Assembly: GCA_022829145.1 (NCBI GenBank) | Contig: CM040741.1 | Location: forward strand, 59,632,547 to 59,696,546 | Source: Albula goreensis | Lineage: Eukaryota; Chordata; Actinopteri; Albuliformes; Albulidae | DNA length: 64,000 bases | Direction: 5' to 3' | Shown: piece after piece, positions 768 to 64,000 of the stretch | How the letters are laid out: each line of letters opens with the position of its first letter | How positions within the stretch are numbered: the stretch's first letter is position 1 | The notes under the pieces: model-generated | Seen by the model: only the letters and a program-made list of their open reading frames with translations | The model's database searches: none | What the model was told of the DNA's origin: nothing | Program-made: the position numbers and the translations under genes

Positions 768-3700
768 CTGGAGACGAGACAGGAAGGAATGCTCATATGA
801 GCGGTGCTCCATACACCACACAACAACTGCCTGTGCTTTATGATCCCCCCTACAGCGATCCAACTGTGTGCGTTAGTCTCACCGCTCAGACACAGCGGGT
901 ACGCTTTTGGAGAGGGGGTTGGGTAGATAAGCCTGGTCCCTCCTGTCCCGGGATGTCATGACAGGCAGAGAGGCAGATGTGGGGATGGGACAGGTTGTGG
1001 GACACTCCCTTATGGTCGTACCTGTAAAAGAAATAAGAAAGTCCCAACAAGCAGCAGAGCCAGCAATATTCCTGGATTCCAACCCCTTTGTGTCACTTCA
1101 GCTCAACACTGCCACCTGTATCTACATCTATGTCCAGAATTACAAATGTACATACAAAGAAGATTGTATGTACATGTGTAAGAAAAATGACTCTTCAGTT
1201 AGAGGTAGTAAGGATGAAGAAAATGTGTAAATGTTGTGAACAGCTTGTGAGTATCATTCAAAGTAAAGAATAGATTTTTATTCTGTATGTGGTAACCCTC
1301 AGATATGCTCAGGACACAATATCTAAAAAATGTGTCAAATAAGGTGACTCAGAGAAGGAATCAGCAATGAAATTATGCAAAAAGAACTGTCGCTTTTAAT
1401 GCCAAATCGCAGAAGCCTGGGCCAAATGCAAAAACTTCATCCATCATCACTGTTCTGTGCATTCCTTTACTGTAACAATTCTGGGCCTTGTTTGCCATCA
1501 CATACATGGGTAATGTTTGTGTTTGCTCACCAGTGAACCCAAGATAAGGTCATGCTATTGAAAATGTTGTCATTCATGTGTTGTACACTGTTCATGACCA
1601 GGAGACAAGTGCACACATTGTTCACAGTGACACTGTTAATCATGTAGATCACATGACTCAAAAATACTTCATCTCCCAGTGTCCCCTACATAGCCATGTC
1701 TCATTGTTCAGCCCCCGCGAGCCATGTTAAATATTAATGAGGCAGGAAATCTTTTAGTTTTGACTTACTCTGTGGGAGGGAGGCAGCTCTGTTCTTTGTC
1801 AACACTGCATACTTGTCCTGAAGCTTCTGTAAATAAAACAGAACAGTAAGAAATTTGTGAGGACTAGAAATACCATTTGCTTCACACGTGATTCGGTCAT
1901 TTTTATACATATTTTATTAAAGTCTTACTTTAAGACAGAGAGCAAGGCATCTGAAGATCTAAGTACTGAATTCTACAAGTCAAGAATTTTTCCCTCAAAC
2001 TGACATTATAACACAAATTACAGCACAGCTAGCTAGTTACAGTTAACTTAACAAAGTCTCAAAGTGCTGAAGGACTTCTGCTATGTTGCTATCTAGCTAT
2101 CTATTCTACTTATAATATGACAAGCCAGTTTGTTAGTGATTTGATAATATTAACCAGCTATAACCAGCAAGGCTTTTTAGCTAACTTGTTTTATAATTTG
2201 GAAGTATGTGGCATTTTCATATTCTGGATTGCATTTTTGACACAACATCCTCTAGAGGGATACTTTAACATGACAATGTAAGTGGAGCTACACTATAATG
2301 CTGTGAGCAATTTCAGCAAACCCAAAAACAATTAATAGCACGCTACCTTCATACATGGTGTGGCAGAGTCCCGGCAGCCCTTATGGACGTTTATGGTACA
2401 TTCTGGGGAGGAAGTGACATCAAACCACATGATATCTCTGCAAACAGTTAACAAAGCTAAATGAAATGCTTTTAGACCAAAGCACAAGTCCCTGTAAATA
2501 TATCTATGCTGAAAAAAGTAATATCCAGGATAAGTACCACTAGAAATAGTCTACTCTACAATTAGAACTACAAATACTATTATCAACATTAAAAACAGCC
2601 TCAATAATGATAACAGGAATAATAATAAGAAGAAGAGGAAGAAGAAGAACAACAACAAAATACACTTTCAGGAAATAAAATGAAGAAAAAATATGTATAT
2701 ATATATACACACACACACACACAGATAGATATATGGTTTGGAATCGAAGGGGCACAATCCACTTTTGTATATTCAGATCAATGTTCAAGCTTTCAATGCA
2801 CCACCGTTCTCCCCATACTCACGGGAGCAGTGCAGAAGGTCCTTGGCTGGTGCCGGCTTGTCACAGACCAGGCAGAGTGTTAGACCAGAGCTGGACCCAG
2901 CTGCAAACTGGTGTGTGTTATTCGCCTTCTCTTTCCCTTCTTTATCCTTCCCCTTACCCTTGGAAAACCAAACCAGACATGGGTGACTATACATGAGGAC
3001 ATCTGACTGCATAACGGCATCAGAACTGTTTGTCTGTTTCATCTGTTTAACTTTTTGTTAAAGTCCACCACAGGATCATTCGTGCTTTATGTCTGCTTAC
3101 CATTAACAGGCTCATAGGAGTTAATGATTGAAGGAGAATTTCTGCTTGCTAAGCTGTTATTGTATGTTTTTCTACCATGTAAACACAGTATGAAATCTAA
3201 AATGAATACTTTTTCATACAGGGTTGTTTTTCTAAACTCAGAATAATATCACAACATCTAGCCATATGACATGAAGAAACACAATCATTTGTATTAACTC
3301 ACAGAAAATGGTTCGAAACAGTGATGGTAGGGTGTGACATCAAGCTTTACCTTGTTCTTGTTGCGAGTGCTGGACATCCTGCTCTTCAGGAAGCTGAAGG
3401 TGCGGCTCACTTTGTACTTCTCTGACTCTGCCTTTGAGGGGATAATATACCTATCCCACTCTTCTTCTTCAATTCTGTTTAAAGATAAATGCAATTCTCA
3501 AACTCTGAGGCTCAGACCAGCCCTTGCATCTTTTTGTGCGTATTAAGATAACATCTATTTAAAATAATCAGTCTGCTTGCAACTGATTGTGTCTATGTTT
3601 GATTTTATTGTTAGTCTGTGTCCCGATGTCTCATTAAATCATTCATTTGAGAGCAAAAGGACATTTTTTAGTGATAGTGGCAATGTAATGTTCCACACTT

Positions 3701-9700: not shown

Positions 9701-12700
9701 TCAAGTATGACTGGAGGAGTGAGAGAGGAAGAGATCAAGCATCCAGCCTCTGACCTCAGAGAACAGGTGTCTCGATGTGGGCTGGCCCTCCGGCTGGACG
9801 TGCTAGTCCGTGGGGTCCGGCCCATCCGTGCCAGCGCCAGGTCAGCGGGGGAGGGGGAGAGGGAGAGGGAAAGGGAGAGGGATGGGGGCGGTGAGTGGCA
9901 GGAGAGGGAGGGTGGTGTGAGGAGGGGGAGTGGGTGCAGGACGCTCCAGCTTCCTGGAAATGGGGCGCTGGCCTGGGGGGGCTCCCTGCGGCATCCCATC
10001 CCTCGCTGTCTGTCAGAGTGCTGTCCCCAGTCACCCCCGCAATGCTGTACTTTATATCCAGATCATTCACCTGCTCCAGGATGGAGGAGAGCAATTAGAG
10101 TCACAGTTCCAAAACTACTTCTTGGATCTCACATATAAGACAGGCTGGGCAGCACTGACTATTGCACCAGAGCTTCTGATTCAGCTTCACTCAGCTAATA
10201 TATGCTGATGAGTGGAAGCACTGGTGATGGAACCAAGACTCACGATCAGGACTGGATGATAAAGCAATATTATTGTTTAATTCATTTCATTTTGATCATA
10301 CAGTGATGACCTTTTCATATAGTGATATAGATTTTGATTTAAAAAATCAGGATAACAAAGAAAACTTGGGCCATCTTCTTTCCATTGCATTTGCAGATAC
10401 TGAGAAAGGTCCACATAATCATATACATTTAAACATTTCTAATGTATATCTACAGATATACATTTCTATAATGTGACCAGCCTCAGGCACTCAATGCGTC
10501 TGATGGCCAGTCTCTGCTACAGCATACACAAACTGATTTCTTTGGCATGGGCTGCCTGATTGACCCTAAGGGTCAGGGTAGATTTGATTGGCTGTGGCAG
10601 TTTACAACTCTTAATAACTGCCACTGACTGGAGTTAGAAAATGTCATCTACATAGAAGGTCTTATGGTACAGACAGTACAGATTACAGAAAGTAGATTGT
10701 GAGGCTAATTCATGGCTGATCAATGAAACCAAATGACCAAAATAAAGGTCCAGACACGATCAACATTTGTCCCCAGCTTTGACTTCCCTTTAAATAGAAG
10801 TTTGCATTCTATTTCCATCACAAACGCAGCCTGGAAAGTTCATCAAAATAACAATAACTGAATATCAGAATGTCTTTGTGTGGAAACTCCTTTGAAGGTC
10901 AAAAGTACAGACAAATGTTGATTCATACCATGCATCAGTGTTATGAGCCACAGATGACATCTAAGACCAGAGCTGTGAGTCTTTCAGATTTAAACTAAAA
11001 ACTAGGACTTAGGCTTTATTCACTCATACATTTCATCCAGAAACACTGTACTATTTTCGTGTATCAGCTGTCACCCACTTTTACATTACAGAAGTCGGTT
11101 TGCATATAAATATGCAGAGAAAAAGAGTAACACTGACAGACTTGTTTCGGTTGAAGGTTCCTACAGACGTTTTTATGTTCCACATGCTGAGTAAAGGCAT
11201 TTTTATATCAGGGATCTTGCCAGAAGTGCTTCAGGATTCAACCAGAGGCTGTGGCTTATTCCAGGAATGTTATATACAGGTTTCCTTCCACTAACTTTTG
11301 ACCTAGTCCCTTCAGACTGACCTTGTGGATAGTGCGGTATGGTATGATTGCATCCTTGAAGTCTGGCGCATTAGGCACTGGCAAATGATTTATATTTTCC
11401 ATAAATTTCAATGACGTTTTAAGGATTAATGTCAGATTTTCGAGGATCATTTTTACTACAGCAGTAGTCAAATTGCCGTGAAATTGGACAAGTTTGAAGA
11501 TTGTGGCCAGAAATACTTTATGTGATACATTACTTTCAAAACATGGACACACACTTGTGGATATCCTTGGAAGTGAAAACCAGGCACATATTACTTCTGC
11601 AAGCAAACTTATTCTGCAACCTTGGAAGCTCATCTCTATGTAAACAATATTAGCACAAAACTAACATTGCTCAACTAATCAGTAAATGCCATCAAGGTAG
11701 CGTGATGCCAAAGTGTGTCAATCTGCCACAACCTTTCAAGTGTGGAGTCCATATTTGACTGATTTCCATGGCTTTTCAATGACTTTCCAAACTGAAAACA
11801 TTTTTAGCAATATTTTCTGTGAAAACCTTAAAGGATTAAAGGGTTTCTGAAAGACAATAATTTCCCTCTGTTTTTCTTTCTATCCTCTCTCATATATCAG
11901 AATCACAGCACTTAAAACAACAGCAATCTTGTTTGTGAGCCAGTAAGTGTTTTATGCCCTCATTATCACACAGCTCTACAGGGGAGAGCTAGCAGGAGCA
12001 TGTTGCGAGCTCATGTCCCTACAAAATACATCAGGGGCGGAGTGAATCCCTCCCTACCTGATCCACCAGCATGCTGTTGGCGTAGACATGGTCTTTCCCA
12101 TTGATCATGGCGGAGAGCCTGGCTGCCGCTGAGAACGTGGACCGGCCTGGGTGTCTGCTCAGAGACGCAGACTGGCTTTTCTCTGAAATTAAAAAGGATA
12201 CAAGCAAAAACTTATACACACTTCACGGACATTTACAGTTTAACATTTATCTAGCTGTCTGTCTGTCCGTCCGTCTGTCTGTCCACCTATCTGTGTGATT
12301 TCATTTTTTATTTTAAGACAGTGGAAGGGTTAATGCATTATTATATCTACCTTGATTTTACTTTTCAATTTGAGAAAATGAATGTTTAAAACTGTATGGT
12401 ACTAGTGTTTAAAGAAAAAAAAATACTTTTGTGGGTTGCAGCTCTGAAATGTATCTATATTGTCAACATAATGAATTTATTACTTCAGTTGTTTCTTACA
12501 ATTCTACAACAGGCAGATACATCACAACCCTGGTTCAGTGAACAATGGTATATTTTATCAGTATTCACTTTACAAGCTACATATCATCCTGCCATTATAC
12601 CTATCATTAAAAATTAAAAGTAATAAGAAAAGTAATAACATTGCACAAACATTTAAACAACAGACAGTCTATAATGGTTTGATCATTGTTATTTCTCTGG

Positions 12701-17200: not shown

Positions 17201-19948
17201 TAACTCTACAGATTGTAAGTGCAGCTTTCAAAGAAAGACAACAGCTGAGAGCTCGACAAACATTTTCCAGCAACAATAATAATGACTGCTCTTGCTCTAC
17301 TTACATAAGTCATTACATTTAGATTTTACAATGTCAACTAAACCTACTTAAATTTGAAATAATCCTTTCAGAAACTAAACAGAGTTGCAAAATCTTGTTT
17401 TTAATTATTTTGCTGGCTTTTACAAATAATCTTTACAAATACAGTAGTTTATTCCACTCCAAGTCAAAGGCAAATTTCCCAAAAGATTAAGTAGGTGTGA
17501 AATAAGTGTTGCAGAGAGGCATATTGTATTGTAATTTAATGCTACTCCACATCCAATTAATGGTTGCTCAGATTAATTGCGTGGCAGTGTTAGGTTTTTA
17601 GCTTTCTGACACACTGTGGGAGTCTCTATCTTCACTCTCTGACCTCAGACTGTCTTCTTAAATACCGCTCCTGTCAGGCTGATCTGTGTGTGTGTGGGCA
17701 GTCCAGCAGACTGCAGCAGGGTGAGGTGGCACATCTGTGACTGTTCATCTCTGTCAGTGCAGAGAGATCGTCAACTGAATGGAGCTTTTACTGTAGGTGT
17801 GCTGGCCACTTCACACAGACACGACACTCTTATGCGCAACCAGAGTGGCTGCTTGAAGATGTCTGGACAATGCCATGTGTTGGATTTAGCTCAATATCAG
17901 AATACTAAACAAACAACTACAAAAACCCTTCCAAATACAGATTAGTAAAATATTCAGTTGATATTCCTCTGGCTAGCTAAAAGAGAGCTCTGTTCTTAGA
18001 GCACATTTACAAGTGCTTACAGCTGTCTTTATTCACTGTGCTAATGAAATTCATTCTTTTGATGAGGCAACAAACATCACATCCATTTCACAATATTCAA
18101 GTTATTTGGGTAAGCAAAAAATTGTTTGACCAAAGCCACAAAGACTTATCATAGCCTTATAGTATATACAGTCCATATCTTTTATATTCTTAGCCCATTT
18201 ACTGTACAAAGAAATGAAAACAACAGAGAAGAAAACATTCACAAGAAACCAGAGAATGAGCTAACAAGACCCAGGTGTTAAATTCTGCTGATAAAACATC
18301 AGTAACTGCAATAGTGAACTTTAAAAAACATAATAATTCATATAACTAAGGTGGTGAAGCTGGGGTGTTGACTTGATCTTGATTGAATCTGGTAACCTTA
18401 GAGGATAAAATGAGCAGTCTGTAGGATATAGTTTATAAAACATTCCCCATCTGTCTATCATTTCTCTTCCTTGTCTATATATTTAGTCTTGTCTTCACTG
18501 TAATATATTTTCCAGATGGGATCACTATCACTTGTCTAGAATCATGCCAGATCGCATTTGAGTGCATACCAACAATAATTATTAATAATCACCAGGAACA
18601 AGGCTATCCCGTTTCCTTTACTGAAACTGTCATGAAATGAAGAACTTCTACAGTGAACATCACACAGAACAGAATTAAAGTTATCCCGGGTCATTTGGTC
18701 ACTGTTACCATCCACCCACAATAATATCCAGATCACTGGCGCTATGCCGGTGACACAAACATGGCCGTAACCTGATAATATTCACTTTCAGGAGAATACA
18801 CAAAAGCCTGAACTGGCTGAACCCCAGAAGTCAACAGCTCCATGATCCTTGAGAAATATGACATACGATGAAAAGTTCGAGACGTCCTGCCGTTTGTTTC
18901 TCTGGGGGTTCTGCCAACGATGAGAGTGCTCGATTTGCGTGGTGCAATTCTTAGGGACTTAACAATTCGTGAGTAGCCCCTAGTAAACACATCAGAGAAC
19001 ATTTTGTTTTTCTGCGGCTGAACAGAAACGGACTTGCTGTCAGCCATGAAAAAAACGCAGCCCTTAATGAGAAACATTTAGCAGGCATGAAACTCATCAG
19101 ATGTCCGGTAACGACTGCATTCACTTTAAAAAGGTCAATTACATCTTTAGTTTGTCACTTGTATCCTTCCACATTTGCATCTTAAACATGCAAGCAGAGA
19201 CAAAGCACTATATCTATGAGACAAAATTTCAGACACATCTATACAATATGGGACAATGCAAATCACAGCGGTGATATGTGAGGTAACTACAACAAAAGTA
19301 ACTACAAAGGTAGCATGGGGGGGTGTTACAGACAAAATATGGCCAGTTTGCAATTAAAACCACTGTGCAGTCTATTATTCACAACATTTTACTTATTACT
19401 ACTTGCTCTAGTAAGCAGTGTTCTTTCCTATTTAAATGTACATCAACTGAAAACTGTTTTGCAAACAAATCTGGCTCTAAATAAGTTTCCTTGCAGGGCA
19501 GCAAAGTACGCTAGTGCACTTCACAAGCCACAACTTCGGTTTAATTTCTCTTCAACTTTCATGCTAAAGAATACAGCTGTCATAACAGTTAAAAATCCCT
19601 CCCATGAAATAGTCTGTCTGAGCTTGCTCATTCCTTTCTTTACCTTGTTTTGACGTCCTCGGACGGATCCTCATTTTCGGGAATGAGGGCCAGGAATAAT
19701 TAAAGGGGGAATCCGAGTCGGAATCCATTTCTCTTCCCAGTGTGTTTCACACAAGCAGTTCAGCTGGTGAGGTGAAACCCAGCATGCTTTCAGAACAGAA
19801 CAACAGTTCTCCGGATGGTGTCCGATTCGGGGGTCCGATTCTAGATTATCCTTTCTGCAGCACTGGGTTCATGTTCCGGGACTGGCTGCACAGAGAGCTG
19901 TAACCCAGACATGAGAGGGGGTGGTGTGTGTGTGTGTGTTTGTGTGTA

Positions 19949-19991
<43 letters not shown>

Positions 19992-22900
19992 GGGGGGAAC
20001 GAAAGACACACCGAGAACAGGGCAGTCCGGCCAGACGACAGTCCTCAAATCCTCCCAGGAGACAAATAGGAGCCGATGCGAGACGAGGTGTCCAGAAGAA
20101 TTCAGAAGGTCAGCCAAGGCCGATGAATCATTAACTCACCTTTTCAATTTCCATGCAAATGTGAGCCGCGGGGGTTCAGCCGGGTTCGCAAGGTGGGGGG
20201 GTGAGGGTGAGAGGGGGTGGGGTGGCTTACAGGGGGCGCCACCCCTTTACGTCACGCAGAGAGTCTTAAGGAGCCGCCAGAAGTGGGACTTCTGCAGTGG
20301 CGAGGTCGACGTCTCCAGGCTAACAGCTGCGCCGCTGCATTGCATGGCTCCTCCGCCACGCTGGACGCAGTATGTGTTAGTGTTGTGACACAGCTCCTGT
20401 TGTCTTTGGCTTCTTTCCCACAGAGCTACAGCCGACTTTTTCCATGTGCAAACACCGACGGGAGAGACTCGGAGGCTGGAAGGAGAACGGAGATCCACAG
20501 GTTTCTTTCCATGGTCTTTCCCTCTTTAACCTCACGCTGCGTCACCACCAAACCTCCCCCCTTCCCCTCCACGCCCCCCGGCCCTCACCCCTCACCACTG
20601 GCAGCCGGCAGAGTTTGGCAGCTGAGGGGGCGAGATAACCCTCTCCACAAATGTCAAACCACGCATTGTCCGACCTCAGCGCTTGCTGAACCCACAGGCA
20701 GACTGCAGACGCGCAAAAGGCAGAGAGGAAAGAGGAGAGTGAAAAGGGGATTTGGAAACAGTCGTGGGTCTTTAGGAGGAGTGGGTGGAAAAGGGGGTGG
20801 GGGGGTGGGGGTGGGGAATCGTCCTCTGGAGTCAGTAGAGCCGAATATGTTTCTGACTGTTTCCATTGCTCCTAAGATTGGTCAGGCTGCATCGGGGAAG
20901 CTTGTAAGCATCCCCCCACACCCCCGATTTCAGCGGTGTTGGGGTCTGGCAGTTTTACAACCTCTGCTCTCAGCAACAACAGCCCCAGCGGCAGCTTTTT
21001 ACAACAAGTCCTCCATTCTTATACAGTCTCCCAGAACGACTCGCTACGCAATTAGCATTCAGCATGGCCTTGGCAACCCCTCCCCCCCGCGTCTTCTCGG
21101 GCTGCACAAAACTCCTTTCTTTGCGCGCCCCATACGTGCTTGCAGGAGAGCGAGCCCCGTGAAGAAAGAGGCTGCCTTTGCCGCCTGTTCACTAAACTCA
21201 CATTAAACTTCCCTCTCCCCCCCCCCACAGGCTACTGCAGCGCCATGTGCCTGTGGGGCCTCTGGGGTGCAGAGGGGGTGTGTGGATGGAGCTGCAGCAG
21301 CAGGTTGGAGCAGGGGGACAAGGGCGAGGGGAACACTGGAAATGAATGCGTGAGGAAGTGAGGGAAAAGATCAGAAATAACGAAAATGTGGCTCATCTTT
21401 TGTGAGTCTAAGACATTGAGCTTGTTTTCTGAGTTCACATCAAGTACTGCTGAAGCCCATGGTGGCTCCTGTTTTTCAGCTCAGGAGATGGGGTCAGTTC
21501 CCACCTCAGCTGTGTCCTGCTGACAAAGCAGATCTGTCTTCAACTGTAAAATGACTACAGATGTTCACTAATCTCACTAGTCATGCTTCGACTTTCTCTG
21601 TTGATTGATCATAATGCCCAATTTATAGGATCTTGCTCCATGAGGAACAACAAATCTGTGTACCAGTTGAAACCATAGTTACACCCGGACCTGACTGCAA
21701 GAATTTCAGCAGTATAAGTGATGAGGCACTTATCCGTAACATATCACCTAAAATTATGATCATAATGGCAATACATTTTGAAAATGTACCCTTCCAGTGT
21801 AATGAAACATAGTGCAGTCTGAGAAAATTTAAGAAATTCTTCTTAAGTGTAATCCAGCAGCAACATGCTAGATTCTCATAGTCATTTCCACATTCGTAGC
21901 ATAATATCAGTTCATGTAATGTATATGATCATGTATATGACATGTTTCCAATATTTCCATAAGTACTCCCCTTCACATCCTCGGTCCTATAGCAACTCTA
22001 AACAAAACTCTCACTGGTTCTACAATGGCTCTGTAGTTATGTACTTATAGTGAATAGCATTTACCTACTACTTGCAGTTACATAATGCAGTGCTTATATA
22101 ATCATTGAGTGTATTTAGAGTGGTCTTTCTTTGAATGCGCTTACTGTCCTCTTAGAGTAGATCTTGACAGAACTTAAAGTTTACATTTCCTTTTGTTGTA
22201 CTTTAAGAGCAGAAGCTGTACCCCTCAGCCCCATGAAAACACAAACAAGGAGGGACTATGTTCAGGGCCATATATTTCACACATGTCCAAACAAATGCAG
22301 AAGTCATTCCCAAAAGCCAGAGGGCAACGCTTCTCACCAAGGGTCAACCACAATGCAAATGAAAGAGTCTGCAGTCAAAGTCCTCTTCCAGGATGGAAAG
22401 CTAGGACTGCATCTTTGATCATGATTTTCTGTTTATAGAATCGTTGGTCATTATGAATTTGTAAAACCAGAACAGCTATAAGTCAAGACAAGATATAATA
22501 CCGCATGCATTGTACTGCTTGGAAAAGTAAACAAGTCTCTTCGCAAATGTTTGATCCATCCATTCTGTATTCTCATCTAAATCTTTAATCAGTGTCTTCA
22601 AGTCTATAGTGACCACAGATGTTCACTACTCATACAAAAAGAGCTCTGTAATTACTATTTCCAGGAATAAACCTCAAGTCTTTGTGTGACTGCTTTTCAA
22701 AACCTAAAATAGCACCACTCTCTTATACTTAATCCAATGATTCGCATACTGAATTTCACCCTGTCAGACGTGAACTCGTGAAGCCAACAGCAGAGAACTT
22801 CAGCAAATTTGGTATTCAATTGTACTGAAGCAATTCATTAAATACAATTCATGAGTTTAAAATCTATCATATGTAAAATTATGCAAGATAAAAAAATCTA

Positions 22901-30930: not shown

Positions 30931-33900
30931 ATGTAGTAGTAGTAGCAGTAGTAGTAGTATTAGTTCTAGTTGTAGTAGTAGTATAGTACAGCTGTAGTAG
31001 TATTACAAACATTATTATAATTAATACTTTCTGATCATTATACATTTGCACTTAATTATTGTTGTAATTAATATACAGAGGTTAGTCACTTGTAATATAT
31101 AGGTGCCAGGTGCAGATGCTGAGGAGTAAAAGATATCACTGTGTTAGACGGTTACTACCCATTTTTCACTAGGCCCCCATTTTGCTGGCTACATCCGAGT
31201 TTTCTGAGTTACAAATGATTCAGAAAGAGCAATGGGTTTAAAATGTTTTCCTTATGATTACATTATGAACATCAGAGTCCACAGCGTTGCACAGAAAATA
31301 TGTGTCTATATCAAATAAAAATCTTACCAGAGTGAGACGGTGTAGCTTCTTCCTCTTCTTCATCCAGGGAAAGCACGAGCTGTTCTTCAAAAACCTGGGA
31401 CAGAGGGGCGTGGTCACATTTGACAGTACAGGACGTCACAGAGGGAGAAACCTAACTACAAAACATACAAATTCACACATGCACACAGACACACACACAC
31501 ATAAACAAACATCTACACAGACACACACGCACACACACACAAACACACACACACAAGCAGACACACACCAGCACATGCACACACACAAACACACACACAC
31601 ACACACACACTGAAAACCACATGTGCACGCACGCACGCACACACACACACACACACACACCCAAGACAGATGCACACAAACACACACGCACTCACCTAGA
31701 CAGACACACACAAACACACACACACAAAGTAATAGCACCTCTTACAGCAATAAATGAGAGTGGTGTGAAGTGAGGGTGTAGTAGTCCATTAGCAGAGCAC
31801 CTGCTTCTCAGAAAACCTTTTCCTGAGAACACATTGTTGCCCAGCTCAACAATCAACAGAGGCACCAGTTCATGGCATAAGTGCTGATGGCTAATGACTG
31901 CATCTATAAGCAATGTCAGTTCAAACACTATCTTTTCATTTAACAGAACTGGACCAAAACAAAGGTTACATTTCCTAACATGGATTCAGTTCTCACAATA
32001 GTGAACTGAAGGTAGAAACAGGAAAGTCAACCAGGTCTTTGCTAATTTCAAAGCAGTTGTAGTCATGAATTTATTCAAATCAAAATGCTGATGCCACTTA
32101 GTCATGAAAAGTGACAGTCAGGTGAGGTCCCAGCTTATACACAACAGCAGTACACTGACAGTGTGTCCATACCAGTGCTCTGCATGCTCACTAATTTCTG
32201 TTCTCTTCTCAATTGTATATAAAATATTATTTGATATATTTTCATTTATAGTAATCACTGAAATACATATTTTGATAATAAATAAAAGTATTAAAATGGT
32301 TTGTTGAAAGATGTTAATTTTTGCTCATTTTGAAATTGCCTTAGCTATCCTTCTTATATTATTTAACCTGTTCCGCTTCATATCTGGTCCCATTCAGGTT
32401 AGTTATGTGGAAGTACAATGTATTATAGAATTTAATAAGAATATGTTTAAAAGCTATATATTACAAATACCTTAATGGTTATTTGTATATTTGCTCATAT
32501 ATTGTGAGAGATTTCAAAATATGTTTTGGTATATTTCAATGTCTTTCATTACCCTCAGGAAATAGAGAGTAGAATGCTTCACTACACCATTTGGTGGGGG
32601 TATTAGTGTTCTGGCTTTGGTCTTTTTTCAGGATCAGTACCATTTCTGCTGAAACACCGGCAACATCCTCAGGTTCTTGGGTCAGAATTTGATTCCTCAA
32701 GTCAAGAGTCGGGCACTATTTAGCAGAACATAAACTCAACACCCAAAACCTCACCAGTGATTATCAGTGGCAACGTATTCCAGGAAGCATACTCAATCTG
32801 CTGAATCATCAATCATTTCAGTTTGTAAATAGCAGTTAGCTGGCTGGGCCAGGAAGCCCGAAGAGAGCAGACGTTTCACTACTCAAATGCCTGAGTGAAA
32901 TGAAAGTGAAATGTATTTTTTCAAAATTAGTTTTGTTATATATACAAGCACCATGGATTTGGAATAATGCCCACTGTTGTTGTAATCTTTCTGTAACACT
33001 AAGATAAGTCCAAAAATAAAATTCTGTTTTGACATTCTCTATAACAGGTGAAAGAAAATTTACTAGCACCAGACAAAAGCTAACTTGTTATATCTTTGCC
33101 CAAAGATGAATGGATTGTGAAAGATTAAGTGCTACAATTGCTGCAGCTGTGGCAATGAACTGGCTCTACAGCAGGTCACAGTTTTTTAACAAAGGTGGTC
33201 GTACTTACACTATCTACCAGCGCAGGATTCCCTCCACAGAGGTTTGGGAAAAAAATCTGCAAGGAGAGAGGAGTGAAAGTTCATGAGTACACATTGCAAA
33301 CCAATCACTGGCACATCACCTCATTCAGCAGGCTGGTCTGAAAGAGTTGCAATGCACGTTGTCTATGCTGGCAAAAGCTTACTACATGCAGTGTTACTCC
33401 ACTGCACTCCTTGGCAGGCTGCCGGCCCCTAGCCTTTGTGACCTCACAACAAGGGCCCCTCAGTGGTGGTATAAACCAGTCATCACCCCTAGAACAGCCA
33501 ATCACCTTCTGAATAGTCACCTCTTCCAACTGTGCTGGGTTCATCCAAACTGACATTCAAACTGAATTGTGCAGCTGAATCAACACTATTCTACAATTTG
33601 TCAAGTGGCTCATTAATGCAGTTATTTAGCTGTGATTTCGAAAATTGCTCAGTAGTTTACCCTGGCTGTACTTAAAATATTATGAATTGTGTTGTATAGC
33701 AAAAATTTCAGAGCAGACGTCCTGGTCTAGGAACATGTTAATAACTAATTCAGCTGTAATTCAGTTCAAATTAATGGCTTTCAGGACATGATACAAAAAT
33801 ACTAACCTCTTTTCCCTGGCAATATACAGAGAAAGCAGATTTAAATCAAGGATATAATTTTTCAATATCAAGGGTAATATTCCAATCCACAAACACTGTA

Positions 33901-36900: not shown

Positions 36901-39900
36901 ATTCATTACATTTACCATTTCAATTATATATAGCTAAAAACATTAGGATGAGCCAAGCACTTTAGCTTTAGCCATGCATGCAAGCTCAATTGATAGGCCA
37001 GCAGCCATATGCATTTAAGAGAAGAATATATATGTCTGGTCTAGTTCTGAAGTCAAGGTTTATGTTTTCAGCAATGAACATGACAATCGCATATTCAGAA
37101 CTTGAAAAAACTGGGGAAAACACATATAAAAACCAACCTTTGTTTGTATCTCCTTCACTGTCTTCTCTTCCATACTGATTTTTCAGACTGTTTCCTTTAA
37201 GTGCTTTTATCTAGAAAAGACATTTAAAGAAAAATGCATTCATGAAATAGTTCATACTAAAATAAGACATGGTTTGAATCTGCAACAGACTATTGCTTGA
37301 GGAGTGAATTGTTTAAACTTAAGTTACATTTGAGTTTTTACACACTGATGAAGGCATTAAAGTCAACCTAATCCAGCACCACACTACATATTGAAATATG
37401 TATGTGATGCAACTTCTGTCAGAAAAAAAATGATCAATAATGATTATAGCCTAAAGTTTTGGAAGTGATAAATATTCTACATCAAAGCTATAGTATCTAT
37501 CTTGTGATAGCAGCTAAATATAAAATAATGTGATAGACCTTTAAAGTCCCAGCAGTATTTGTTTAACCAAATTTAGATTCTTTAAATTCAATTAGAAAAT
37601 GTAAGGACGTATATGCCATTACACATGTGTTTTTGTCACAATATGCAGCTTGCACATTGGCCATTTTCAAGCTGAAAACCCACACTAAATCCAATGCAAG
37701 TGGATATTTACAAAAAATAATTTATTAACAACAGCAAACAAAACTTACTGCAGTTCAATGTTTTGGACTTAGAAAGCTGCACAGTTTGTTTGTGTTATGT
37801 TGGACCCAATGCTCACCTCTCTCAGCAAGCCATCATTCCTTAAGTGTTTCCTTAAGAGCAGAATATTGGCCTCCTGGTTCTGGTCCGAGGTCCGCTGGAC
37901 TGTTAGCGTCAGGGTCTCTGTGTGGTGGCAGAACTGCAGCGAGCTGGAGCCTTCAGCCCAAACTTGGGACATCAAAGACTGGGTAGGGACTGAAGGATCA
38001 GAAGGGCTGTAAAATGAACCAGAGGAAAGCCATTTTGGGATTCTGTGGCCAGGATAATGACGATGTGTTGATATAAAATCAAACACAGAAAGGCCTTGAA
38101 ATATTTTTGAGATTACAAGAAATAAATTATTTACTGTGTGCAAAATATTGATTATACCCAAAAAATTGAGTACAAATATATGTAACAAAATAATATATCT
38201 ATATCAAAATATAAGTAATATTATGATCTTCAGTAAAAAAAAAAACATGAAAAATTTAAAAATGACTCCATTGCAAGGATTAAAAAACAAATATATAAGT
38301 ATGCCTCATATGATACAGTTAAAACTACATCTAAATGTGCCGCACAGGTTCAAACATACAACTGTGGCATGAAGTATCAGATTTACTTTCAATTTAATGA
38401 CACATCCAGCAGACAATTTAATTAGTTGTAACACTACAGCAGCATATGAAAAAAGCAATTATTTCCTTCAGATTATTATCAGTATCTCTATTTCTACTTC
38501 ATTAGTCCAGTGCAAGATAAACATCTCTTACACTACAGACGATTATCCAAAATGCTCTTATTTGTTGGATACGTTCACTGGTTTCTTTATTGCCTCATAA
38601 TTCAAATTAAAATGACTTCTTCCTCTTTGGAACAATAGAGCACTCTCTCTCTTTTTCAAAACATGAGCTTGGTGCGATCGTCATTTGCATGTTTCCTTTG
38701 AAAATATTGTGCGGTTGTGAGTATGTGACCTCTGTTCCTCCTCTCAGTTTCAAGAGCCATTGTGATATCTCCAGACAAGCCTAATGGCCACTTTCCAACC
38801 TTTCCCCTTTTTTAAAAAACATTGCAGTTTCTAATGAGTTGTTCAATTTACAGAATATATCATTGTACAAGTACGACAGTATTCTTGGTTCCTTGTGGTT
38901 CGAACAGCAAGCTTTGATTTTGCTTCCTCCGCGACCTTGGTCGTCATGGTTGCACTATGATGGCATACTGTTGCCTTGGAAGTCTCAAGTCCTTTTTTTT
39001 AAATCAGGTTTGCAATGGCCTGTCAAAACACATGCTGTGGCTCAACTGGATGAAAACAAATATATCTGATATCTCTGTGAACAGCTGCAAGGATCCAAAC
39101 CTTCTGGTTGTTTTTGCTTGGTTTCAGAGCAGTGGACAACAACACTGAATTATTCTGGCACTGTTTTCTTTCAAATGCTGAGCCCAAAGACTGTTGGAAT
39201 ACTCATTTTTATGAGTATCTACATGTACTTTTATAAGTATCAACAAAAAGTTAATCTGGTTGAAACTAACAATTCAGGAAATGACTTGAAATTCAGTCAA
39301 TTAGTTGAAAAATCCTGATAAATTATTGTAGGGATTTTTCAACTAATTGACTGCATTTCAAGTCATTTCCTGAATTGGTGGAACTGAAAATGCAGTAACT
39401 CCAACATTTATCAGCAGTTTCATTAGTGAGAAAATCCATACTTCCATATAATTATGAAGCAGGATTAAGGCTGGATATCCCTGCACTCTTTTTGAGAGCC
39501 GGACAGGCAGAAATTCAGGCATTAGGGCCTAATCAAAGCATTTTTAGTCACCTAATGCAGAAAAGATGCATGATTAGACCTTTATAAATGTGTTTGTAAA
39601 AGACAAGCATGACAAAAGAATAAACACTTGGAAAACACCCTAAATAGAACATTAAGTAGAGGTTTTTACAGTGTAAAGTGCATAATCAAGTAATTAGACT
39701 GACATGTTATACAGTCTGATGGAGGCTAGAATAAAAGAGTTCACTTGCCTCTCCATCTTAATTTCATGCTGAAGGAAGCAGTGGCTTCCCCTCTTGCTAT
39801 ATCTGAAGAGAGGTTCTGATATTTGAATTTCAAATTATTTTTAGACAAAAACCAGAGAAGGCATTTTGTCTCCAAGCAACATAGATACTAGCTTATTTCA

Positions 39901-42900
39901 CTTCAACTCAGCTTTAGGGTTCAACTAAGATTTAGGTCATTAAAACTAAAACTTTTTGTAAAATAATTGCAGCTGTGTTTTTATAATCAAACACCAAATT
40001 AAGGTTTTTTTTGGTAGAGTGTTACTTTAAAAATCACTGGTAAACAAAAAAGTTGTTGTGAATGAAAAGAGCTATGCCTCGGAGGTAGCACTTGGTTCAA
40101 CAGACCAATATTGATTTTTTACAAAACAATTTTGTCATGGATATGTATGCTGCCATGACTCACCCTCTCTTCCACAGAACTCGACTCAGTAATATATCTG
40201 TGAAATAGATTATTATTGAAAATCTATATGGTATGCATGCCCATTCATATTACTTTTCTTAGCTTTACAACGAAGCAGAGCATATTCAATCTTTCCTTAT
40301 CATGTTTTATTTCAAATGTAATTTAGTATGCGATTTACCAAACTAATTAGCTATGAAGGCCACCAACATTTTTTGAATATTGTGATATTTGAATATTGTA
40401 TATATGTGACAATATGTATGTGAAAACATCTACTACTTCAAGGGTTGGACTGCTCTATTCTACAAAGTAAACAGATGAATTGAGAAATGCACCACCAGAG
40501 GGAGCACTACATAATGTATATGAATGGGATTGTTTATGAGTACTTATTGAAAAGCAATGTATATATTTTAATGGCTTTTGGTTTGCAGGAATAGAAATGT
40601 CCCACCATATCAAATAAAAGTGTCAGTTTCAGTAACACATTGTGCTTATTTCTCTCTCTCAAACTCCCACACTAGAATAAGAAAAAAACTGTTTTTCGCA
40701 GCCGTTTCCCAGGGAACAGTAATGGAAATGTGAAAACATAAACGTTATTCTGATGAAATCCTGGTGTGTCTTGTTTGACCATGTGGAGACTGGTCATGAG
40801 AGAGGGTCTGTAAATACTGGAGTATCAGCGAGTGCTCCGTATTTATTCTGCTGCAGTAATGACTCACCCCGCTAGCAGGTCCAACAGGGCCTGCATGCCG
40901 GACTGTCTGGCCAGCTGCAGGGGCGTTTCCCCCTCCTCGTTGGGCAGGGCCACAGCCGCAGAGCCCTTGGGGTGAGACAGGAGGAGCTGAGAGAGGTGCG
41001 GCAGGCCCAAACGCACAGCCAGGTGGAGGAGGGTCTCTCTAGGTTGGGGCTCTGGGGGAGACAGAGAAGGGGAAAGAAATGATGGCATAGTCACACCATA
41101 GTAGTTTCATTTTAAGATAATATATAACTCTCTTGTATTCCTGTTAAATACTTGACAGGAATTTGAGATATAATATATATAGCATGGAGCAGATGCTTTA
41201 ATGCAGAACATTAAATTACTATTCTACATTACAAGATTAATATCATATGTGATGTGAAACAAAACATTGCAATGCTCAATTTTCACATCTTTACATCCAT
41301 GTAGCTGTATATGCAGAGCTGTGAATGTTGTCTCCAAAGAAAAAAAAGACATGGTTTTTCACAATTAAGTTATTCAAAATGCAAACGTAGATATGACTTC
41401 AATCCCAAAGCCCAGGAGAAGGGAGAAGGCATCTGGTGAACAGGCCTCGAGCCAGCATCAAACACAGACACAGGCCAGCACTCTCCATCCACCGCCCACA
41501 AATCACAGAGAGACGTCACGTGAACGGTGTCGTCTTCAGCCCTCGGCAGAAACAGAGCAGGGGAAACTAAAAGGTCATCCAGTCCTTCGGATTCGCGCTG
41601 ATTCTTTTTACATCTGAAAATAAGCATGAGTGAAAAGGTCGAGGGCCGCTTACACATCCCTCTTCAGAAAGCATCCGTCTGTTTGTGAGGGCACACACAA
41701 TGATCCCTGCTGCTCAAGATGCTGCTTAATTACACAGGGACACAAACAGATCAGCTCCACACATGAACAAGCCTGTGTGCATTCTTATAATTTCACTGCA
41801 TGACAGGGGGAGAGAGGATACCAATGAGAACAACATTTGTAAAAATGTGATGGGGTGACAGCCAGGGTGAAATCTTACTGTACCTCAATATGACACACAT
41901 GGCATTTTACAACGTCATAGCCAATAATACTTCCTTCTGTCTCATTGTGACATCATTTGTCACAGTTGAATAATGGCTCTTTTCTCAGTAAATCTCGTCA
42001 AGTAATCTGTTTGAATTACTGCAACTATTTTGGGATAACATTTTTGTGACTAATTTGTCCTTATAAAGCCTGAATTCTTGGTAGTTATTGCTCTAGTTCT
42101 CAGTATGGTGTCACTGACTGATGGGGGATATAGTAATCATACTGACTCAAATGCCTGGAATATATACTGCTGAAAATAACTGCAGAGCTGCCAATTCTGG
42201 TCACCAAACTAACACTGGGGAAGTAAACACTAATACTAACATTAAAAACAAGGTATGTGTGTCCTGCTCTGAACTCTGTAATCCAGAGTCCACTCTTCAT
42301 TCTTCATGGCTTTGTGAAAACTTAAATAATGAAGAATTCTTCTAAATAAAAATATTCTAGAATTTTACAGAATGTGCCACTAGGGGCAGAATCTTAGACA
42401 TTTCTTTGACTGAACATGGTATTCATGATTGAGTGGATCTTTTTTGTTCAAACTTCCCAAATATTAATGGATATAATGCCCCAACAACTTTTTATGTTTA
42501 TGGCATTATTTTATTAAATAAATATCGGTAACCTGAGTTTTCAGAATCTGTGGGCCTATTGCAAAGTAGTTCTCTCATTCAAAGTATCTGCAAATGGAGA
42601 AAATTCCTGACAATTTTTCTCAGATCAAAAACGACAAACAGGGCATCCTTCTGCTAATTCATACTGACTGAAAATTGTGCCAAGAATACGTAATCTCAGT
42701 GACTGGGACGATTTAAGCTGCATAGTTTACCCCAGACAATCTGTTACATAAGACGGTTTGGAGGAGTGTCAGTTATTGGTCACATTGACATTGGTACAGT
42801 GAGGCCAGGTTATGCTAATTCTTATTCATACTGCATGGCTCCCTGCTTTGGTTGCTCAAAGGAGGACAGTGGTGCCGAACACAGTAGGCTTTCTGTGCAG

Positions 42901-45900: not shown

Positions 45901-48900
45901 TTTGCTAATTGTAATCTATATGACATGGTCAAGGCAAAAATATTTATCGAATCTTTTAAAAGTGTAAATGTCAGAAGCAATCGCAGGAAGCTTAATATAA
46001 TCTGACACAGTTCCAAAACAGAGCAAAGGAAATTCAATATAAGCTAACCATTTCATTCCAGCTAGAACAATGTATACTCTAAAAAAATCTAAAATCTCAG
46101 TAACCATCTTTCATGTGCTATCCTTGCAGCACTGATTGCCAGTCAAAGAACAGGAACCTTGCTAAAACCTTCAAAAATACGTTCTAATTAAGCCTTGTCA
46201 TATTGGAAGCAATGTCTAAGCCGGGATGGATCATCGGGGCTAATCTCGATTTCTGTGACATGAAACAGCATGATGTACTGTAATTACATGGCCTGGAAGG
46301 ACTGGTAGTGTTCTATCGGTCCATGACCCAAATTTATCTTTCTTAATTCTGAGTGCTTAGGATACTCTATTAATTCTCTATGGTATGGCTTGGCTACGCA
46401 CTGACCCAATAACTTGCACTGAACATCAGCACATGCACTCAGCAAAGAAAGGGGTTCCATATTATCTGGAACATCTTTTCTTCATTTACTCTACAATTTT
46501 AGATAAAATAATTATATTTATTCATTATTAAGGGTAATTTTTCACCATGTAGGATGTTATGCTTAGCCCCACCCTTTTCAATGCTTTCAATATCTAGTCT
46601 TGATTCTGGACTTTTGATTGCCTCTAGGGTCAGATATTGGTGTATGTTAACATGAGGACTAGAGCTGTGCCAGTGAAAGTCAAGGAAGCCATTTTGAGGC
46701 TGAGAAACAAGAAAAACATTTAGAGACATAGGTAAAACCTTTGGCTTGCCAAAATCAACTGTTTGGAACATCATTAAGAGGAAAGAGAGAACTGGTGAGC
46801 TCAGGAATTGTAAAGGGCCTGGTAGTCCATGGAAGACTTCTATAGTTGATGACCAGAGAATTCTCAACGTTACTGTAACTGTTGATAGCAGAAGTATAAT
46901 GAATATTAAAATATACAGAAACATATTTGTTCAAGTCCAAGCAACTGCTTGCAAACTCACTGGACAGTGCTACATTCTACAATAAGACAATGATCCCAAA
47001 CATACTTCTAAAGCAACAAAGGAGTTTTTCAAAGCAAAACACTGGAAAATTCATGACCGACCAAGTCAGTTACCCAATCTGAATCTGGCAGAAAACGTGT
47101 CTCATATGCCAAAAAGAAAACTTAATCAGCTAGCCCGTGAAACAAGCAGGAATCAGACATAGCTGCGGTACAGGCCAAGCTGAGCATCACCAGAGAACAT
47201 ATTCAGCACCTAATGATGTCAATGGGTCACAGACTTCAAGAAGCCATTGCATACATGGTACATGCAAACATATCCAAACATTATGGAAGGAACTGTATAT
47301 CAAAGTCTGACAAAGATGTGGCATAAACTTTCACCATTCAGGGGTGAGTTGTCCAAGTTAGCTTAACGTATGTCAGACAACTTCATTTGGACTTGGTATC
47401 AAGATCCAACAAGCTCAAATCTTTTGGCTATCATGCTTCAAACGTGAGTCATCAAAATAGATAAGTCATCTTTGTCAACACGATGAGTGAACTGGTGCAT
47501 CCTTCTTGTCAGTTACATATCATATATCATCATAACTGATATAAATGATTAATTAGCTAGTTTTAGCAAGTTTTAACTAGTTTTTGCAAGCAAGCAGGTG
47601 TAGTCTTGGTTTAATTAGTTTACTGAGAAGTTTTATTTATAGCTTATAATGAAACCAACCTAAATCAAAATATTATTGTGAAGGCTTATATCAGGAAAGC
47701 TTTTCAAAATAACATTCTGTCATGCTCCAGCTTAAAAAAATGTCTGACATAAGCATGGTCACTACAATATTCAAATTAAGTATTGTATCTGATTATGATA
47801 TCAAATGAAAGTAAAAACAAAGTTTGGCTGAGTTTGACACCAGTTCTGAGAGACAAATGTTCATCTGACTCTTCTGTATGGCACTGATACAACATTAAAC
47901 ATTTGATTGCATATGCATTCAAAGCTCAGAGACAGAAAAAAATACCTTCTCCAGGTTGGTTTCCAAGGATGTTCCAAGCACCTGGATACCCTAAGTTGGC
48001 CATGGCCTTTGTGACATTTTCATCCATCTTCTTGAGGGTGTCTTTGCCCCCCAGTCTGACTTTACTGAAGATGGTCTCATTGCTGCTGGTGTTTGGGGAC
48101 TGAGAGTAGGAAACCAGCAGCTCAGCCAGCTCTTGAGCTTCATCAAGCACATATTCCATGGAGGCTTTGTCCAGGCAGGAGACGGGCTTTCCCTCAGTAT
48201 AGAGGTAAGCTGTGACAGAGACCACCTCCAAGAGGTTATGACCTGGAAATAACACAAACCACATTAGCATGCTATCACATGGCATCCTCCATATATATCT
48301 ACAGAATGGTTAGACACAAGTTATTGAAGTAAAAGGACACAAGTGTGCACGAGCACAGTTCCCCCACAGTATGTGAGAGAAGGCCTGAAAATATGTAAAA
48401 ATAAAAGTAAAACAGTGCTCAATTGTGACAGTCATCTTAGCATTTTAACATTTAATAGATAAGTGACATGATATGCCACTAATACAATTCTGCAGAGACT
48501 ACTGGAAACCACTGACAGAAATTAAATGAATCCTGCCCTATTGTATTTAGTGACTGAATATTTCATTAAAATAAAACACTGCTCATTGCACATTTTCACT
48601 ATGAACTGACAGGAACCAACAGCATAAGTGCTGGCTGTCTCGTGGTGCATTGGGAAATCAGGTTGAGTGTTCTTGCCAAATGCCAAAATGCAGGTGCTGT
48701 ATTAGTATACCTGTTACTGATTAAAAATTAAAGGCGAAAGCTGCATGCAGTTACATAATGGCTTAGGAGCTGGATCATGCTTCTGAGGAGGCAAGCTCCT
48801 TTGCATCTCATGTCTTCCCAGATTTGGGGGATTTTTCCCCAGCTCACGCACAGCAAGAGCAACATGTTTGTTCAAAGCCCTGTGCTTTCCTCTTTATTAT

Positions 48901-49757
48901 TGAAATTACCTCTCTGCCGAACAGTAATTCCATTTGCCAGAAGTATCTTTTCAAAGTATCCAATTAGCTGGCTGGGAGTTGTGTTACCCACAGCAACTCT
49001 ACACGCCTATGTACGCGTCTCAGAGTCTTTCTCCACTGCTCATATCAGATGGCAGGAGGAGACGCATGGAGACGATGGGGCCACACCTGTTAGATTCTGC
49101 ACTGAACCCTGAGGCCTTCCTCTGCAAGTCTGGACCTTTTTACTTCAGATCCAAGTTTAGGTTAGAGGGAGGCAGCCAGACTTCTGTTAATTGTGCCAAC
49201 CACAAAAGATGAACAGAGTACATTACATAGCAACAAAACTACATTTCACTGTCATTGGACAAATAAATGTACTATTCACTTGTTAAACAGAATGTTTAAA
49301 TATGTGAATTAGTTCAAATTCACTATTACTGACACAACATAAGTATAAAAATAACCCAAAAAGAGTGCCAGCATTAAACAATACATAATTAGTCTTTGGC
49401 TGAAAGAATCTTACATACCTAATGCATGATAAAAGTGAGCTACAATGCAGCACATGTTGAAAAAATAATGTAGCGAGAGCCGATGCTAAGGCCATGGCTT
49501 TTAGGCCTTGTGGAAAGGCAGGGCACAGGTAATGCTAAGGTGCATTTCTGGTTCCCAGAGTGGAGTGACAGTAATAACTTCTGTGCCGTGTGTTAGACTC
49601 ACCAGGGACTGTAAAGTGCAGGGTGCGCTCATCTTCACATCTCTGAGCTTCAGTGATGTGGTCCAGTGTGGACCCCTCCACTACCACATAGACTTCAGCC
49701 TCCTCTGGGAAGGGCTCAGGGGTCTGCAGTATGGCACAGGCTTTCAACTGCCCCTGG

Positions 49758-60700: not shown

Positions 60701-63700
60701 AACACTGTCCAACTTGATGACCAGTGATGTTCTTTGCTACTTAACCAATGGTCAGTTACTGCCTCTAACTTGGAGGAATACAATTTTTAGCACCTACTCA
60801 AAATCAGAAATTATTCTGGTGTTCCTCTGTGAATAAATGCATATGCGTCCCAGAAACCTGTGGGCACCGATAAGCTTGCAGGGAGCCTGTAGTCAGACAT
60901 TGAAAATCTGGAGTTTTTTGACTACCCCAAATGTAGATCAACAAGGCATTATCTCTTAGTCTAAACAATTGAACTTTCATTTTACAGACAACTCTCATTC
61001 ACTTTGCTCACTAAGCTGCTTGAATTCAGACTTAGACTCTCATTGGTCAAATCGGTTGCAGACTGCCATAACAAGCAGGCTCCGAGTGTGCTTTCTGACA
61101 GTGTGGGTGTAACGTGTGGTCTGCCAGAAGGAAAACTTTTCAGCCCTTTGGTATTCATTGCAAAAATCAAGAGCGCACTGAGTCAACCGTCTGAGTAATG
61201 CTGAAAGTTTTCAGACGGACTCAACTGCGCAGAACAGCAGACACTCACATTACTCTGTGATATCCAGCAGGATGTGTCAGAATCTGGGTCTGACCCAGTT
61301 TGTGCTGAAGCCTCTGCTCTATGGGTCAGCAACCCAAAGTTCTACACATATTCACCATTTGCTTCACATCAGCTATATGCTGATTTTTTTCTGTCTTTAT
61401 CTAGTCAAGCCTACCGTGAACCATGCATGCTGGTATCATAGTCCAGAGAGTGCAGTCAGCACTGAGATGGTTTGTGTGACACTGTGTAGCTCAGTTCAGT
61501 CTACAGCTCATCATATCTGTCTTACTTTTCCTGACATACCCATGATCCATGTCCATTGTGCTGGCCTGTGTAAAACATTTTCACAATCCCATCTCTCATC
61601 CACCTCTCTTGCAATGAGTTCAAAGGTAGGCTGCCAACCAAGAGAGTGTTAATCAATAGTCAGTAATATTTCATTTGCTGTGAAGCTAGGCTTGCACAAA
61701 CTGAAATTCATGTCCTCAGTGCTGTGGCTGCTGCAATGCAAGTCAGACTGTGGCTCAGTACAAAGAAGCTCTGTGTATGTAGCAACAAAGGCAACATTTC
61801 ACTACGTAAATGGGACAATGGACATGACCAGTGCCCCATATTACCCCACTCCTCTCAGTCTGAAATGATTTTACAAAATAATCGCACACTTCAGTTCTTC
61901 AGAACTAAATGCTAGCTCTTATATGCAAGCTCATAAAGTGTTTTCAGTTTACTTCATGAAATTCAAAAAGAGTGTCTTGTAACAGTGAAATTATTTCAAA
62001 TGTATTAATTTGTATCTACAATCCAGGCTTCAGTACCAAATTATTTCCTTTAATGAAAATTGTATTTTAATAAATATTGGAATTTCCTGTGCATAGAGTT
62101 ATCTGAAGTATCTTTTAAGCATAGGCTAAAACAATTTATTTGTATTTCATTCTTAACAAGTTACCTAACATTTGAACTCAATCTGTGTTCTGCCACTCCT
62201 GCAATGAAGCATGCCGATATGCGAGGCCTCACCACAGTAGACTGTACTTTGTAAACCCTGACACAGGTCAAACGTAAAAGCCTGCATGTGGAAGCTTTTT
62301 GGTCTCTGCCCTGTGGTCTCTCGTAACACCGCCACAGGGAGCAGAGTTCATTTTCTTCAATAATAGCAGCTTGTTCCATTGCTTTACATTTTAATAAACT
62401 TTAAAGTACATTATACGTAATATAATGGCACTGTGTTTTGTGTTATTCATGCATGTAAGTGAATGCTTATGTCAGTAAACTCGGTGGTGCAACGGTGAGG
62501 AATAGCTAATCCAGATTAAAACCATGTCCTGACGTGCAATGTCAATGAATTGGCACAAAACCTAATTTAACATAATATTGTTATTATATATGTTGGCATT
62601 CTCCTGGTTCAAGAAAACCAGTAATGGTGAATTTGGGAATGTTTGTTGGCAAGGTTTCTTCGAGGCATGGTTGGTTTGTTCTGTATGCTCAAAGGCACAA
62701 TAGCCCATACAGACTCAAAAAGTCTTTTGAAGGCAGCTATGATAGATAGCACTGATTCAGCCGCATGGTTTGTGCAAAACTTTTTGCAGCGTTGTTATGT
62801 ATTTTATTCATTCATTTGTGTTTGCTATGAATGATTGGACCGCACTGAGTATGCAAACTGTGTTTGCGCAATCAATTAACACAAATAAATCAAATCCATT
62901 CGACTTACTAACAGCGATACAATAAAAATGCTGGTATGATGTAATACATTTGGGATACAGTGCGTTGTGAAGTTGTATAAATTATAATTCTGTCACTCTC
63001 ACATACACATGTAAAATCGAAAAGGTAAGAAATATTACTCCAAAACGGTAATCAAATGGTACCCAAAGCAGGTTCTTCGTTATATTTCGGTAAAAGGAAG
63101 GACGCTGCTGCCTTTTCTAAGTTTAAGTAAGGAGCTAGAAAAAGCAGCAGCGGATGTTTTACATTGCAGGTAAGGTTGTCCATAATAATAAAAAAATCCT
63201 TCTGACATGTACTTGCAGAATTAGTTTGCCACAAAAGAGCAATTATCGTTGTCGCTATTGATGAATCGACCTGTTTTAACGTACACACGATATGGCAAGC
63301 TGGCTCACACCATCCTTGCTCTTTTGATGATATTTCCAGAAAAGAAACAAGCCCAGTATCAGATTACAGTAATAACATCGGTTTACGTTGAAATTGCACG
63401 TTACCTCAATCCACGCATCGCAGAACTTGTCCAAGCTGACTCTGCAAATAAGCAGTCAGTATTCCCGCATCTTTGCAACTTTGGCAGTAGATGACATGTC
63501 CACGTTCAGGTAGAATAAAGCAAAAGGAAGAAAATAAATCTGCATTGGTTCTGTCAAAGTACATACCATTCAAACAATTCCATAAATTAATGCATTTCAC
63601 ATTAAGTTAGGTGACAGCCTGCAAAGTCAGAGTTAACCCATAGGTTTCGGGTTTCCAGAAGCGCCGGTATTTTAGGAGTGGCTGAGCACGGCGGCTTTCT

Positions 63701-64000
63701 CACTTCTTTTACTGAGGGAGAGGAGCCAGCCTCGCCTCCCCGGGATCCAGGCAGGTCACACGGAAAAACACACAATAACAGTGTCACGTGTTCAGAGACA
63801 CAACCTGGCTGAGGGTACAACGACAGGCTGTTTAACCCGTTGACTTCTACAGGTGCATTTTCCCAAAAACACTATTGTTAAAAAGTAAGCGAATCAAATA
63901 TACAGTTTAATTACTGGTTACTACGGAAATGAAATAGTAGTCATTCCTTAATGCCTTCAGCAGAACAGTAACGATCAGCGTTTTAGTACAAAATTCAGTT
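57704..64000. other. sequence upstream of coding exon 1
   Basis: Exon 1 has an acceptor, so an untranslated first exon and promoter should lie here or beyond. I could not define one. The most CpG-rich part is at about 63600-63790, where the minus strand could hold a promoter or leader exon. No other gene is supported on either strand. Confidence 0.45.
63640..63790 (-). promoter_or_regulatory. CpG-richer block, possible main promoter (weak)
   Basis: This short GC- and CpG-rich stretch (gcgccgg, gcacggcgg, ctccccggg) stands out from the AT-rich surroundings about 6 kb upstream of the start codon. There is no identified donor, TATA box or leader. The call rests on composition and position only. 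Confidence 0.25.

Follow-up and report, generated by a model that had tools for sequence, protein, structure and literature searches.

The arhgef28 locus and an open frame in one of its introns

The window analysed here is a stretch of 64,000 nucleotides from Albula goreensis (assembly GCA_022829145.1, contig CM040741.1, positions 59,632,547 to 59,696,546), and it carries arhgef28, a gene for a Rho guanine nucleotide exchange factor (GEF). Inspection of the letters alone (the sequence-only reading) had proposed that a long intron of this gene holds a CpG-rich promoter and an alternative first coding exon of 28 codons. This exon, its counterpart in a second copy of the gene (on C4) and the short protein that it would start are the subject of this work. 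Positions are those of the window, and all arhgef28 features lie on the minus strand.

Exon phases, domains and rough protein length were taken from a draft model of arhgef28, in which several linker exons are absent and exon ends are approximate. The long form starts with an exon encoding 11 residues (57660..57692, beginning MELTRR); its ATG is common to the C4 copy, and an ATG 36 bases upstream is not. Exons at 49603..49753, 47946..48242, 40868..41051 (ankyrin-like by Pfam) and 37817..38006 are likewise confined to the long form. They are followed by the constitutive exon at 31328..31394, the last N-terminal exon that the short transcript would omit, which ends in phase 1 (CACTCTG/GTAAG). 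The first shared exon, 12058..12182, has a phase-1 acceptor and is in frame with both the constitutive and the alternative exon. Three exons in 2347..3474 encode the cysteine-rich C1 domain together with the segment that precedes it, and would be retained in the short form. Immediately beyond the left edge of the window come the exons for DH and PH, the first DH exon being G000:C1:59631076-59631333. By these coordinates the domain order is ankyrin-like N terminus, C1, DH and PH, as for arhgef28.

The gene was identified by its PH part. When this was compared with the solved PH domains of the Lbc family (PH-only entries), the best score was obtained with Rho GEF 28 (6bc0, 227 bits), followed by GEF 18 (6bcb, 196 bits) and AKAP13 (6bca, 153 bits). 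The table of structures contains no DH domain of GEF 28; AKAP13 and GEF 2 reach higher scores with longer chains that include the DH, where the match is also longer. In Pfam searches the GEF core was clear (RhoGEF 122 bits, PH_16 127 bits). The ankyrin matches were Ank_2 with 24.7 bits (below the cut-off of 27.3) and Ank with 21.3 (cut-off 21.1), and C1_1 scored 25.0 bits, just under its cut-off of 26.5, with a query that was short of some exon-junction residues.

The coding part of the alternative exon occupies 19644..19728, within an intron of 19.1 kb, and consists of 28 codons from the ATG plus one base, followed by the donor GTAAAG. The adjoining 19729..19950 is probably its 5' untranslated part, the transcription start being putative and a separate noncoding 5' exon possible. 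The sequence-only reading had described an ATG in good context, an in-frame TGA ahead of it and a phase-1 donor fitting the exon at 12058-12182, and base-by-base checking bore this out: the ATG at 19728 has A at -3 and G at +4, the TGA is at 19749-19747, and the 29th codon opens with the G at 19644 before GTAAAG. The acceptor TTTTTAATTTCAG precedes 12182, and the joined frame is open through 12058.

The intron was scanned for frames that open with an ATG, run for 20 codons or more and reach, in phase 1, a donor of equal quality. Two such frames were found on the gene strand, the alternative exon and one of 66 codons at 23436-23238, and one on the opposite strand. Because a second such frame sits in the same intron, the case that can be made from the single sequence is weak and does not rise above chance. 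The frame at 23436-23238 was absent from the matches listed between the intron and the C4 duplicate.

The same exon in the duplicate gene

The C4 region is a collinear duplicate of arhgef28: its exons, beginning with the MELTRR start, follow in order as far as the C terminus, and btf3 and UTP15-like sequences stand on the same side. We take this copy to stem from the teleost whole-genome duplication, some 300 million years ago. When the 28 residues were searched against the 932-Mb genome at E up to 10, two matches were reported; one is the exon and the other G000:C4:10723122-10723205, which is 82% identical over the full length of the peptide (23/28 residues; 67/84 bases). The reciprocal search with the C4 peptide reported the same two matches and no other at this threshold, and a degenerate PFNYSWP pattern occurred in the genome only at these two arhgef28 sites (a reversed control pattern had no hits). 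The C4 exon sits in the corresponding intron, between the equivalents of 31394 and 12182, and has the same phase-1 donor. Residues 1-16 of the two peptides are identical, the five differences all falling from position 17 on. Similarity between the copies is bounded by the ATG and the donor GTAA and drops on either side. The duplicates thus resemble each other in the exon, its phase and position, the CpG-rich block and the upstream elements described below; they differ in that the C4 copy has no TGA 18 bases before the ATG, and its upstream frame stays open over 28 codons with no ATG among them. Conservation of the frame, the check that the sequence-only reading had called for, was therefore clear in the comparison made, that with the C4 duplicate of the same genome.

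As a control, an 84-base block was set at each of the 19,062 possible positions in the intron and scored by its best ungapped identity to the C4 intron. The median was 39/84 and the 95th percentile 44/84. The highest peak was a noncoding element at 20167-20084 (69/84), the alternative exon came second (67/84), and the next peak reached 54. A coarser control with 454 blocks on a fixed grid had ranked the exon first, which was due to the positions of the blocks, and the full scan is preferred. Compared with a chain of 42 matches between the copies, some of them noncoding, the peptide (82% in the genome search) is level with the first DH exon (82%), above the six N-terminal exons (47-68%) and above the next shared exon (57%). 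Conservation at the level of the first DH exon may point to a specific interaction of the peptide.

Coding constraint

Between the 84-base frames of the two copies there are 17 substitutions, 2, 5 and 10 of them at first, second and third codon positions, with no insertion or deletion and no stop; 11 of the substitutions are synonymous and six nonsynonymous. The Nei-Gojobori method gave nonsynonymous (dN) and synonymous (dS) rates of 0.096 and 1.45, a ratio of 0.066. When 17 changes were placed randomly in 20,000 trials, equally few residue changes arose in a fraction of 0.0001 and a stop was created in 0.52.

It was important to consider whether the segment is conserved as an enhancer or another noncoding element in which the open frame is incidental. 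The intron does contain further conserved noncoding blocks collinear with C4 (25101-24746, 18873-18715 and 16788-16720), and the element 0.4 kb upstream equals the exon in similarity between the copies (69/84 versus 67/84). However, that equally similar element (20162-20084) shows no codon rhythm, its 13 changes being distributed 6/4/3 at best, and it has stops in every frame, whereas in the exon third positions take 10/17 substitutions, dN/dS is 0.07 and the boundaries of similarity coincide with the ATG and the donor. On the codon pattern and these boundaries, conservation of a purely noncoding kind was rejected and is given very little chance. An alternative isoform starting here would have a first coding exon of its own that shows protein-coding constraint between the copies, and a donor that leads in phase to a shared exon.

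A related possibility is that the exon is transcribed but that translation of the main product begins further on, in-frame ATGs being present at codon 19 of the exon and in the next exon. The start context at 19728 is nevertheless good, and 23 of the 28 residues are kept, the first 16 without change, which makes this alternative just as improbable as the noncoding one. Since the duplicate in the same genome keeps both the exon and its CpG-rich block, the alternative exon is very probably real.

The CpG-rich block and the start of the exon

CpG dinucleotides were counted in 500-base windows moved in steps of 50 bases across the 64 kb. The eight richest start at 19951-20301 and contain 28 CpG at best, so that the dense CpG block claimed beside the exon does exist; it extends over 19951..20850 and, by these counts and its C4 counterpart, is the probable core promoter of the short transcript. 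At the matching place C4 has a CpG-rich block at region positions 72301-73200 (55 CpG, observed/expected 0.74), and the richest 500-base window of the 120 kb examined there has its start at 72401, immediately upstream of the exon, which is at 73122.

Three elements at about 20.08-21.2 kb occur in conserved order in the two copies (21214-20959, 20455-20393 and 20162-20084). The first, 20959..21214, is 1.2-1.5 kb upstream of the ATG and 77% identical over 262 aligned columns (E 1e-42). The second, 20455-20393, is weak (E 0.7 in the C4 comparison). The third, 20084..20162, about 0.4 kb upstream of the exon, is 84% identical over 79 ungapped bases (E 1e-17), and within it GAGTTAATGATTCATCGGCC and GGCTGACCTTC are common to both copies. 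GTTAATGATTCAT may resemble an HNF1 site.

An exon with these ends could also be a cassette of the long transcript, inserted between 31328 and 12182. Both flanking introns are in phase 1, and an exon of suitable length could be included; the best AGs upstream of the ATG score about 1, within the range of the weak acceptor candidates of the gene. Their frames argue otherwise. In the window copy there are 12 AG sites within 250 bases above the ATG, five of which are frame-compatible, and four of these import a stop, while the fifth, 2 bases before the ATG, scores -11. In C4 the sole frame-compatible site among 11 also imports a stop. For reference, nine clear acceptors of the gene, picked by hand, score 3.1 to 9.6. 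Moreover, similarity between the copies begins at the ATG with no shared acceptor there, and the CpG-rich block lies directly upstream in both. Given the frames and the acceptor scores, use as a cassette was judged unlikely, with only a slim chance. As no good frame-keeping acceptor precedes the ATG, the segment is best read as a first coding exon.

A weaker CpG-rich block lies at the upstream end of the window, at about 62.8-64.0 kb. In successive 400-base windows over 62801-64000 CpG observed/expected is 0.75, 0.79 and 0.93 at a G+C content of 0.34-0.45, and a 44-base stretch at 63793-63750 is conserved. By sequence this block is probably the promoter of the long form. The intronic blocks 25101-24746, 18873-18715 and 16788-16720, collinear with C4 as mentioned, are possible enhancers.

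The predicted short protein

With the gene identified through its PH match and the frame conserved in C4, the proposal of the sequence-only reading is upheld: we think it highly probable that arhgef28 uses 19644..19728 as an alternative first coding exon, that an internal promoter drives this exon and that an N-truncated RhoGEF starts here. Transcription by RNA polymerase II would begin within the CpG-rich block or shortly below it (about 19.8-20.9 kb), translation would start at 19728, and the transcript would be spliced from 19644 to 12182. The short form had been predicted to drop the N-terminal, ankyrin-like region and to keep the C1 and DH-PH parts; exon coordinates and Pfam agree, the six N-terminal exons being lost and C1, DH and PH retained. 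About 307 residues of the long form, containing the weak ankyrin matches, would be exchanged for the 28-residue tail, these lengths being approximate because the draft model is without several linker exons. The tail is composed of an acidic-serine stretch, the aromatic PFNYSWPSF and a basic end, and would probably serve as a new docking or phosphorylation segment. A search of the PDB with the 70-residue start of the short form gave no match.

What the exchange might do can be judged from the human protein, RGNEF. According to PMC7460592, RGNEF without its leucine-rich N terminus reduced the growth of yeast by more than 90%, compared with about 50% for the full-length protein, and this toxicity required the GEF domain. 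According to PMC11146434, the N-terminal 242 residues bind TDP-43 via an IPT/TIG domain. These truncations suggest that the short form loses both a restraint and the TDP-43-binding part; most likely it would then be a GEF freed from this restraint that can no longer bind TDP-43-like partners.

Several observations weigh against the exon, its promoter or the proposed function. The donor is ordinary, with a log-odds score of 3.8 in the window copy and 3.2 in C4. Conservation was compared between two copies within one genome only. Some shared exons are better conserved than the alternative exon (89% at 8699, 95% in PH), and the row for the alternative exon in the chain itself gave 71% over 24 residues, because that alignment started at residue 8 and extended into the intron. 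Over 20550-20001 the CpG block has 57% G+C and a CpG observed/expected of 0.68, and in the wider 124 kb a coding exon (at about -11 kb) and stretches close to 85.5 and 91.3 kb surpass it. The AGs scoring about 1 above the ATG of the window copy compare with acceptor candidates of the gene that score 0.3-0.4 (at 10070 and 8699), so that they might be used by a noncoding 5' exon or by a cassette that breaks the frame. Pfam found no family match in the 70-residue start of the short form and no IPT/TIG match in the fish N terminus, where this domain is assumed from orthology with human. Finally, the yeast constructs were human truncations and differ from the fish isoform.

If the short form is transcribed, arhgef28 gives rise to two proteins that differ in a part which reportedly binds TDP-43 (PMC11146434) and moderates toxicity in yeast (PMC7460592). 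Knock-outs, antibodies and morpholinos directed at the N-terminal exons would overlook the short form. Alleles that truncate the N terminus, for instance the frameshift linked to amyotrophic lateral sclerosis (ALS), would leave it intact should human ARHGEF28 contain the exon. As judged by the constraint on the exon, this ALS-linked GEF appears to have a short form beyond the reach of N-terminal alleles. Were the short form vertebrate-wide, carriers of the ALS-linked exon 6 frameshift would lose the long form alone. The wider proposal is put forward tentatively, as one that may well turn out otherwise: a short ARHGEF28 that is older than the duplication and perhaps vertebrate-wide, that lacks the TDP-43-binding and restraining N terminus, carries a docking peptide of its own and is spared by that frameshift.

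Neighbouring genes and other RhoGEF sequences

On the upstream side arhgef28 has btf3 and a UTP15-like fragment as neighbours in both regions; presumably btf3 and utp15 also adjoin human ARHGEF28. The BTF3 exons of the two regions are near-identical. The UTP15-like piece of C4 matches solved UTP15, two chains named Tako8 scoring slightly better. The fragment next to the window copy lies outside the window, at about 70878-70726 in window coordinates, and is 43% identical to the C4 copy; this copy of utp15 may have decayed.

Elsewhere in the genome a dense cluster of RhoGEF-domain matches (G000:C25:7792715-7919621 and 9883746-9887313) resembles a tandem expansion of a RhoGEF gene. At G000:C24, about 25372549-25372797, a DH exon lies inside a minisatellite-like repeat, which is long and accompanied by a run of N; by its sequence we take this exon to be arhgef18-like.

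Comparison with known systems

By the PH match to 6bc0 the fish gene is the ortholog of human ARHGEF28 (RGNEF, p190RhoGEF), and ankyrin-like, C1, DH and PH parts are present. The difference lies in the forms described: the literature, as far as its text was accessible, deals with the full-length protein and with artificial or ALS-predicted truncations, and no natural short form driven by a promoter was met in the part searched. The first 13 letters of the peptide did not occur in the text of the literature searched. In the accessible part of PMC7494975 the ARHGEF28 events are coded AT only, which we read as alternative terminator. RefSeq presumably includes a human isoform whose N terminus is shorter and which may or may not begin with the same exon.

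The sequence-only reading had drawn an analogy to AKAP13. Of the two akap13-like copies, one was searched for a counterpart of the peptide over the 50 kb that precede its DH exon, where short diverged exons could escape detection, and only chance-like matches were obtained; the best was on the other strand, and the best on the strand of the gene was flanked by stops. The genome searches reported the two arhgef28 copies only, and on these searches and the 50 kb of one akap13 copy a shared origin with a first exon of akap13 was rejected. While the peptide has no detected relative beyond the two arhgef28 copies, the analogy holds for the kind of arrangement only. The short forms of AKAP13 (Lbc), proto-Lbc and onco-Lbc, arise from internal starts. 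In both genes, members of the Lbc family of RhoGEFs, an internal start would yield an N-truncated protein that keeps DH-PH. A short arhgef28 would thus be ordinary in kind, and public vertebrate annotation may already hold it.

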